DNA of 37,849 nt. Origin: Deltaproteobacteria bacterium. Lineage in GTDB: Bacteria > Desulfobacterota > Dissulfuribacteria > Dissulfuribacterales > UBA5754. Below the pieces are notes generated by a model. The model worked only from the letters and a program-made list of their open reading frames with translations, made no database searches and was not told the origin of the DNA. The stretch is from assembly GCA_036574075.1 (NCBI GenBank), contig JAINCN010000025.1, positions 67,336 to 105,184 on the forward strand. The letters are read 5' to 3'. Within the stretch, counting starts at the first letter, position 1. Each line of letters opens with the position of its first letter. Position numbers and translations under genes: made by a program. This document shows positions 9,345 through 37,819 of the stretch, piece after piece.

Positions 9345-9403
9345 AGGTCTGTCCAAGCGGGTGTCTTCGTCCTGTATCCGTCAGTTCGATAGCTGCAAGG
9401 AAG

Positions 9404-9562
9404 GGGAGGGGGTGCGGGGCAGTGCCTCATCGGCCGGATAACCGCTTTGGTGATGCAACTGCCTTTTCGGCCGTTGACGCGAGGTGCCATGCAAGGCCCT
9501 GCGGCCGCCTGCCCTGGCTTTCTGGATCCGGCCTGATTCAGCACTACCCCGCACCACCTCCC
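9404..9562 (+). repeat. Family B repeat, left hairpin (L1)
   Basis: Outer arms GGTGCGGGGCAGTGC (9411-9425) and GCACTACCCCGCACC (9541-9555), extended by GGGAGG/CCTCCC, enclose a roughly 115-nt core starting CGGCCGGATAACCGCTTTGG and ending CTTTCTGGATCCGGCC. Near-identical copies lie at 22,954 and 23,204. No coding gene: short frames here differ between copies. Followed by a linker with a small hairpin (AAACC...GGTTT) leading to R1. With R1 it fills most of 9,345-9,863. Confidence 0.88.
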
Positions 9563-9630
9563 TGGATTACATGGGCGTACAGCAAACCTTACACGAGGGT
9601 TTGGACGGATGGGTGCACGGCGCAAGTGGA

Positions 9631-9788
9631 GGCTGGTGGGGCGGGCCGTTGTGGAGGCGGGCGGATCCAGAAAGCCAGGGTAAGCGGGCACCGGGCCTTG
9701 CATGGCACCTTGCGTCCTCGGACAAGACAGCCGCTATATTGCCAAAGCGGTTATCCGCCCGCCGGAACAACGGCCCGCCCCACCAGCC
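9631..9788 (+). repeat. Family B repeat, right hairpin (R1)
   Basis: A 158-nt element whose outer 22 bases (9631-9652, beginning GGCTGGTGGGGCGGGCC) are exactly complementary to 9767-9788. A GGA/GGA internal loop follows, then a second perfect 11-bp stem (GGCGGGCGGAT with ATCCGCCCGCC), then an 86-nt apical region. That region is, in reverse complement, clearly related to the core of L1 (AACCGCTTTGG, AAGGTGCCATGCAAGGC, CTGGCTTTCTGGATCC shared). Copies at 23,433 and, inverted, 37,662. Confidence 0.9.
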
Positions 9789-9863
9789 GATTGCCATGAT
9801 GCGGGTCCTCTGTGTCATGAAACCGGACAGTTTGTTTGCTCCCAACAGCTTTCAACGCAAGCC

Positions 9864-22803: not shown

Positions 22804-22953
22804 CTGAATCCGTGAGCCGACGGCCGGTGTGTTTGTTCCGTGCGGCAAATAGCCTCCTGTCCATGGGGGCGGATTTGCCGTTTGAGCCCTGTCCATGGGC
22901 GCCACACTCCGCAAACACCCCGGCCGTTGGCTTATGCTGTGAAATCAAAAGGT
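22804..22953 (+). repeat. Family A repeat, 3'-truncated (A3)
   Basis: Starts CTGAATCCGTGAG (22804-22816), keeps the CGGCAAATAGCC and CAAACACCCCGGCCG segments and CTTATGCTGTGAAATC, then stops abruptly where family B element L2 begins. The terminal GCATATCTCACGGATTCAG is missing. Confidence 0.8.
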
Positions 22954-23112
22954 GGGAGGGTGTGCGGGGCAGTGCTTCACCGGCCGGATAACCGCTTTGG
23001 TGATTCAACTGCCTTTTCGGCCGTGGACGCGAGGTGCCAAGTGAGGCCCTGCGGCCGCCTGCCCTGGCTTTCTGGATCCGGCCTGATTCAGCACTACCCC
23101 GCACCCCCTCCC
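22954..23112 (+). repeat. Family B repeat, left hairpin (L2)
   Basis: Almost identical to L1; arms TGTGCGGGGCAGTGC and GCACTACCCCGCACC. It is joined directly to truncated A3 and is not followed by an R element: similarity to L1 ends just after CAGCAAACC (about 23,139). A short A-like scrap (GTGAATCCGTGGGCC, about 23,158) lies between L2 and L3. Confidence 0.88.
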
Positions 23113-23203
23113 TGGATTACATGGGCGTACAGCAAACCCTTCCAGATGATGCGGTGGTGAATCCGTGGGCCGAGGGTTGTGCGATCCATTGGGATGAAAG
23201 GTG

Positions 23204-23364
23204 GGGGAGGGGGGTGCGGGGCAGTGCCTCATCGGCCGGATAACCGCTTTGGTAATGCAACTGCCTTTTCGGCCGTGGACGCGAGGTGCCAAGTGAGGCC
23301 CTGCGGCCGCCTGCCCTGGCTTTCTGGATCCGGCCTGATTCAACACTACCCCGCACCCCCTCCC
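23204..23364 (+). repeat. Family B repeat, left hairpin (L3)
   Basis: Third copy of L, with one extra G in the left arm. Followed by the same 68-nt linker as at 9.56 kb and then R2, so L3-R2 repeats the whole L1-R1 arrangement. Confidence 0.88.
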
Positions 23365-23432
23365 TGGATTACATGGGCGTACAGCAAACCCTACACGAGG
23401 GTTTGGACGGATGGGTGCACGGCGCAAGTGGA

Positions 23433-23590
23433 GGCTGGTGGGGCGGGCCGTTGTGGAGGCGGGCGGATCCAGAAAGCCAGGATAAGCGGGCACCGGGCCT
23501 TGCATGGCACCTTGCTTTCTCGGAAAAGATTACTGCTACATCGCCAAAGCGGTTATCCGCCCGCCGGAACAACGGCCCGCCCCACCAGCC
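23433..23590 (+). repeat. Family B repeat, right hairpin (R2)
   Basis: 158 nt, outer 22-bp arms perfectly complementary as in R1. The apical region differs from R1 at scattered positions while the stems are unchanged. Sixteen bases (CACGATTGAGGTATGA) separate it from A4. Confidence 0.9.
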
Positions 23591-23606
23591 CACGATTGAG
23601 GTATGA

Positions 23607-23779
23607 CTGAATCCGTGAGCCAACAGCCGGTGTGTTTGTTCCGTGCGGCAAATAGCCTCCTGTCCATGGGGGCGGATTTGCTGACAGCGCCCGTCCGCGG
23701 GCGCCTCCATCCACAAATACCCCAGCCGTAGGCTTATGCTACGAAATCGAAAGATTGAGTGCATATCTCACGGATTCAG
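23607..23779 (+). repeat. Family A repeat, full length (A4)
   Basis: 173 nt bounded by CTGAATCCGTGAG and CTCACGGATTCAG. Same internal plan as A5. It ends about 21 bases before the likely plsY start, so the element is in the plsY leader. Confidence 0.9.
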
Positions 23780-25904: not shown

Positions 25905-26076
25905 CTGAATCCGTGAGCCTACGGCTGGGGTATTTGTTTCGTGCGGCAAATAGCCCCCATCCATGGGGGCAGATTTGCCGACGGCGCCCATCCGTGGGCG
26001 CCTCACTCCACAAATACCCCGGCCGTAGGCTTATGCTGTGAAATCGAAAGGTTGAGTGCATATCTCACGGATTCAG
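25905..26076. repeat. Family A repeat, full length (A5), between ntrY and ntrX
   Basis: 172 nt. Pairings seen: P1 CTGAATCCGTGAG (25905-25917) with CTCACGGATTCAG (26064-26076); P2 25917-25937 with 26010-26030 (20 of 21 exact, the other a G-U; core GGGGTATTTGT/ACAAATACCCC); P3 hairpin 25944-25980 (CGGCAAAT...ATTTGCCG around GCCCCCAT/ATGGGGGC); P4 hairpin GGCGCCCA-TCCG-TGGGCGCC (25983-26002). An unpaired 33-nt stretch lies 3' of P2. The rest of the 397-bp gap (26,081-26,210) holds no gene, only a CTCTGTGTCCTCTGTGCTCC stretch. Confidence 0.92.
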
Positions 26077-26210
26077 GATAAATATAGAGAGATTTTCTCT
26101 GTGTCCTCTGTGCTCCCTATGGTGAGATATGAGTCAATTGGTTGCGTGTATCACCTTGAGAGGGCTTTCAAAAAGGCTACCGGGAAGGGGGGAAAGACGC
26201 AAGACATCTC

Positions 26211-37546: not shown

Positions 37547-37645
37547 TAAGCCTAAGGCCGGGGTATTTGTGGTGTGAGGCAACCATGGACAGGAGGCTAT
37601 TTGCCGCACGAAACAAATACCTCGGCCGTAGGCTCACGGATTCAG
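37547..37645 (-). repeat. Family A repeat, internally deleted, inverted (A7)
   Basis: Reads as the reverse complement of the other copies: TAAGCCTAAGGCCGGGGTAT at the left, then CTATTTGCCGCACGAAACAA and CTCACGGATTCAG (37633-37645) at the right. The P4 hairpin and most of P3 are lost; the P2 arms are kept. Confidence 0.8.
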
Positions 37646-37661
37646 GCATACCTCAATAGTG

Positions 37662-37819
37662 GGCTGGTGGGGCGGGCCGTTGTTCCGGCGGGCGGATAAC
37701 CGCTTTGGCAATGTAGCGGCTGTCTTTTCCGATGACGCAAGGTGCCATGCAAGGCCTGGTGCCCGCTTATCCTGGCTTTCTGGATCCGCCCGCCTCCACA
37801 ACGGCCCGCCCCGCCAGCC
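37662..37819 (-). repeat. Family B repeat, right hairpin, inverted (R3)
   Basis: 158 nt, reverse complement of R2 with scattered changes. It is joined to A7 by CATACCTCAATAGTG, the same joint (inverted) as between R2 and A4. The linker toward an L element begins (CTCCACTTGCGCCGTGCACC) and runs off the window end. Confidence 0.9.

Follow-up and report, generated by a model that had tools for sequence, protein, structure and literature searches.

A genus-restricted doublet of long palindromic hairpins, often nested in a MITE and probably mobile

REPs are repeats of 20–40 bp with stems of 5–13 bp (PMC3733652). In REPINs and BIMEs two palindromes are set in inverted orientation around a structured spacer, and the whole can be folded as one hairpin (PMC3116915, PMC3733652). 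Such doublets are intergenic and dispersed, show compensatory changes and include heterodimers with different stems. MITEs such as Chunjie of Geobacter uraniireducens and QMITE of Coxiella (PMC10969869) are likewise non-coding, short, palindromic and intergenic, and in TIME-COMP structures (PMC4133298) two miniature elements of the same orientation flank other DNA. Apart from the small size of REPs, these traits recur in a repeat, here called L-R, that stands twice in full within the window, the whole stretch of 37,849 nt that was analysed. It is probably a genus-restricted, non-autonomous and non-coding mobile palindromic repeat that is in part the passenger of a MITE. What is new is a repeat family confined to one genus and composed of a doublet of hairpins of about 160 nt, often MITE-nested and far larger than the REP doublets described so far.

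Each unit comprises a hairpin L, a link and a hairpin R (Table 1), the hairpins being GC-rich and 158–161 nt in size with an outer stem of 22 bp. In the unit at 9.4 kb, L and R each fold as a single hairpin with RNA MFEs of -90.3 kcal/mol (z -5.2) and -105.8 kcal/mol (z -8.4) respectively, and none of 200 dinucleotide shuffles folds as well in either case. A single giant hairpin (z -10.1) is likewise predicted for the complete unit (9400-9790). The first-pass annotation had read L and R as paired long hairpins whose apices are diverged inverted copies of each other, and this is borne out by both folds and by the alignments: arms of 126 nt are 75% complementary without gaps, BLAST pairs the apices at 79.6% identity over 103 nt and the unit matches its own complement with an E value of 3.5e-32. 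L and R would be the products of an inverted duplication of one ancestral hairpin in which the link was kept between them. The recurrence of the unit at 23.2 kb was also recognised correctly; this second copy (23204-23590) is 95% identical to the first, its link measures 67 nt, and the small hairpin proposed for the link is present. It is preceded by an extra L and a spacer, an L-spacer-L arrangement that is also seen at contigs C23 and C14. Open reading frames span the unit on both strands, yet the copies carry indels and a protein-coding reading was rejected.

Table 1. Coordinates of the hairpin unit, MITE A and associated repeats (positions in the window unless a contig is named)
Feature	Position	Strand	Basis or structure
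Left MITE A of second unit, positions 1-147 only, right end missing, L directly after	22804..22951	+	
L hairpin, first full unit	9403..9563	+	fold, alignment of L copies
Link, 67 nt, with small AAACC..GGTTT hairpin	9564..9630	+	
R hairpin, first full unit	9631..9788	+	22-bp outer stem, symmetric GGA/GGA internal loop, ~10-bp inner stem, apex
Extra L hairpin	22953..23113	+	
Spacer between two L copies, ending in GATGAAAGGT(G)	23114..23203	+	
L hairpin, second full unit	23204..23365	+	
Link, second full unit	23366..23432	+	
R hairpin, second full unit	23433..23590	+	
Conserved junction CACGATTGAGGTATGA between R and right MITE	23591..23606	+	
Right MITE A, complete, 173 bp	23607..23779	+	
Solo MITE A, 6-bp direct repeat ATAAAT, absent at congener site	25905..26076	+	
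AGAGATTTTCTCTGTGTCCTCTGTGCTC...GGTTGCGTGTATCA repeat	26082-26163; L047 5430-5490, 6212-6240		
MITE A fragment, far side of third R	37583..37645	-	
Third R hairpin, one C-A mismatch in outer stem	37662..37819	-	
End of link adjoining third R, cut by contig end	37820..37849	-	
Tandem R copies without left outer arm	L045 7068-7213; L050 285-563; L056 7663-7808		

Thirteen copies of R, drawn from this genome and that of a congener, were aligned. The stems of R had been described as perfect and its apices as variable, and the stem columns are indeed less variable than the apical ones, but the 22-bp outer stem is fully Watson-Crick in only six of the 13 copies (w9.6, w23.4, C45, C17, C15 and C60). 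The remaining seven have between one and four mismatched or wobble positions; the mismatch in the third R of the window falls at stem position 7. Three pairs of the outer stem have changed on both sides, 97.3% of cells are paired as against 96.1% in shuffles (none of 500 shuffles reaches 97.3%) and the 13 copies show next to no variation in the GGA/GGA internal loop, with the covariation signal weakened by the small number and relatedness of the sequences. This conservation fits selection on the fold, whether as DNA or RNA, and also fits a templated correction of one palindrome arm by the other, which cannot be told from such selection. Gene-conversion-like repair between L and R, which had also been suggested, is not reflected in the data, as L-R pairs from the same locus score 0.688 and pairs from different loci 0.686 (permutation P 0.31).

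The hairpins could alternatively act as a structured RNA or a regulatory element in processing, stability or termination, maintained by selection on the fold, which would account for stems conserved above apices, the double-changed pairs, the degree of pairing and the invariant loop. This reading, already raised in the first-pass annotation, is improbable: at gathering scores there is no Rfam match and only weak and meaningless matches to plant miRNA models were returned, no terminator-like site is present, the neighbouring genes and the orientation towards them are not constant and presence differs between sister species, while the same pattern of pairing would be produced by templated arm correction. 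On three contigs there are tandem copies of R in which CATGAATTTAGGCGGAA replaces the left outer arm, so local amplification does not depend on an intact hairpin. Genes for Cas2 and Cas1 lie directly downstream of an array of MITE A, L, R and R' at L045 7329-8592 (C30), where the DNA of the congener differs.

In its own genome (1.99 Mb in 66 contigs) the unit or parts of it occupy 18 contig positions, all of which are intergenic and in mixed orientation to their neighbours as judged from uncurated ORF calls. Since 11 of the 18 lie at contig ends, the number of loci is about 13–18, and many of the contig breaks in the assembly are explained by the repeat. The congener, the single one compared and 83% complete, has about five loci, namely C95 (L and R), C25 (R alone), C6 (a partial R), C5 (R and the edge of an L) and, at the C45 site, a contig whose first bases lie within an L. 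A BLAST search of 59 other genomes returned the congener only, with no match in the remaining 58 (44 of the order and 14 of the phylum). A covariance model of R likewise had no match in the 44 genomes of the order or in 296 sampled across the phylum, although very diverged relatives could be missed because of the strict filters of the large searches. The unit has no match among phage, plasmid and viral-contig records, none to a known element, and the exact 22-bp arm of R none in the GTDB genome collection, from which this genome and its near relatives may be absent.

The congener also bears on the idea that L and R are the left and right ends of a larger transposon that has lost its cargo. At C95 of the congener the two hairpins stand about 290 bp apart, each with its own half of the link still attached, both of which would agree with such remnants; yet no copy with a gene between L and R is seen, though many copies end at contig breaks and some of these may carry cargo, and L and R do not share the sequence of their outer arms, so that an origin from transposon ends is doubtful.

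A mobile element remains the preferred reading, and the comparison of filled and empty sites argues for it. Where 1,109 bp stand at the 23.2 kb site, the congener has 97 bp and is colinear on both sides with about 87–91% identity; at the C48 site, 812 bp here correspond to about 30 bp there. Conversely, the C95 unit of the congener is missing at the corresponding site here. The empty sites are not base-perfect as other flanking repeats are absent there too, and the direction of the change is probably insertion rather than loss. A further common repeat, AGAGATTTTCTCTGTGTCCTCTGTGCTC...GGTTGCGTGTATCA, flanks several copies of MITE A and is absent at the congener sites. Two positions are common to both species, an R at 9.4 kb and an L at the C45 site, which indicates that some copies are old and stable; the repeat is nonetheless not a single copy held at a fixed position. 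Dispersed intergenic copies of mixed orientation, a presence specific to either species and two sites that are empty in the congener thus uphold the earlier suggestion of a non-autonomous mobile element. At the 9.4 kb site the congener lacks L and has only an R, placed like the one here between tRNA-Ala and the same gene. The two R copies are only 73% identical, and the R here is typical of the family as it now stands. As a typical R and an L now stand where the congener has a diverged R, the old R site appears to have received new sequence, by overwriting or extension, for which recombination with other copies would be the simplest route.

Most L-R copies are nested in a second element, MITE A, a connection that was not made in the first-pass annotation. 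MITE A is 173 bp long with the ends CCTGAATCCGTGAG and CTCACGGATTCAGG; 405 end sites correspond to about 200 copies in the genome, and it is also abundant in the congener. It has the terminal inverted repeats (CCTGAATCCGTGAG) and target duplications of a MITE, as 5-6-bp direct repeats bracket seven of the seven solo copies tested against two of 90 mismatched pairs. Position 147 of the MITE (..GAAAGGT) is followed directly by L at ten contig positions (23.2 kb, C30, C48, C17, C40, C7, C44, C14, C20 and C29), and at six positions R is followed by a conserved junction of 16–18 nt and then by a MITE. Both outer ends of the MITE are thus retained in the compound, and most present copies belong to an arrangement of the form MITE A(1-147)-L-link-R-junction-MITE A. 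At L173 454-1767 (C6 20453-21766) two MITE A ends, 1.3 kb from each other, enclose a nucleotidyltransferase and HepT-like pair (toxin-antitoxin type) that resembles a cassette set between MITEs.

The composite at C48 is bracketed by the 6-bp direct repeat AATTAA and so has probably moved as a MITE; its left and right MITEs are only 0.7% different, where MITEs of separate loci differ by 12% on average. Mobility of the compound as a MITE is supported at this one locus and may extend to others, with no direct repeat found for the composites at 23.2 kb and C14. The notion that the left and right MITE of a composite are sisters throughout was discarded, as the relation is clear at C48 only; the two are moderately similar, and the relation weak, at C14, and they are no closer than average at 23.2 kb, which contradicts it. 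The L-R unit itself has no direct repeat of at least 5 bp at any of the five unit loci examined. Nor is L-R simply a part of the MITE, since copies without MITE A exist (9.4 kb, C45, C10, C23 and C95 of the congener).

Spread mainly by homologous recombination among the repeats, through ectopic exchange between copies of MITE A or of the hairpins, would explain the replacement of a diverged R by young family sequence together with L at 9.4 kb, the two composites without direct repeats and the near identity of the C48 MITEs. It is nevertheless rather unlikely to be the principal route, as the whole composite stands at two sites where the congener has neither MITE nor unit and as C48 has a 6-bp direct repeat. 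An undescribed mobilisation system, in which long hairpin doublets with their invariant symmetric GGA/GGA internal loop would be recognised and placed at a single set point within resident MITEs, so that one non-autonomous element parasitises another, seems improbable as well.

On the preferred reading, that of a mobile repeat carried in part by a MITE, L-R would spread at the DNA level within intergenic space. Because the outer TIRs are intact, at least part of this spread probably took place as a passenger mobilised by a transposase acting on the ends of MITE A, and the copies without MITE A show that there is or was another route, which could be a transposase that recognises hairpins or else homologous recombination among the copies. 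It may be inferred that a mobilising enzyme exists and that L-R has no function for the host. No transposase tied to L/R or to MITE A was found, and the two wider TIR pairs checked, among the sites listed, contain none that would make an autonomous partner of MITE A. If L-R rides in the MITE, one non-autonomous element carries another; if hairpin recognition drives its spread, the case would extend what is known of single-strand-based dispersal.

A matching transposase of the IS200/IS605 or REP-associated type had been proposed, and the corresponding explanation is a REPIN- or BIME-type element that owes its movement to a REP-associated tyrosine (Y1, HUH) transposase working on hairpins in single-stranded form, with L and R as its ends and the AAAGGT before L as the flanking tag that is recognised. 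The inverted doublet with its structured spacer, foldable as one hairpin, is laid out as in the REPINs of PMC3116915, the unit lacks target duplications, AAAGGT or a near variant precedes nearly all L copies in both MITE and non-MITE settings, and the genome encodes two Y1 transposases that could act in trans. Neither Y1 gene, however, is flanked by L or R within 1.5 kb, which speaks against the proposed match. Furthermore, hairpins of about 160 nt with 22-bp outer stems far exceed the size of REPs (PMC3733652), the unit is flanked by AAAGGT before L and by CAYRAATTGAGG or unrelated DNA after R with neither a GTAG nor a CGTC tag, the L at 9.4 kb lacks AAAGGT and the copy number is only 13–18. 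Mobilisation by such an enzyme is possible but not favoured. On both sides of one Y1 (RAYT-like) gene, at L031 1427-2499 (C51), stands an inverted repeat of 20 bp, GACGTTGTTAGTTTAGTTAG, that is unrelated to L/R.

Set against the described systems as a whole, L-R departs from an IS200/IS605-derived (PATE-like) element in the absence of L/R motifs around both Y1 genes, in a genome that may hold unassembled copies. As in MITEs, its presence differs between related genomes and its companion MITE A is typical, with target duplications, which the L-R unit itself lacks. With TIME-COMP it shares the two flanking miniature elements of like orientation and a direct repeat of 5-6 bp around the whole, as at C48; unlike there, the left MITE A lacks its inner end, and the likeness of the compound is one of logic, its transposition being only probable and CCTGAATCCGTGAG no established Tn3-type end. 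REPINs and BIMEs share its layout, and differ in the 20–40 bp of their palindromes, whereas L-R occurs in few copies, is nested in a MITE and has no RAYT gene adjoining any copy seen. It is therefore best read as a repeat of REPIN/BIME-like layout but far larger, and of a familiar rather than a new kind.
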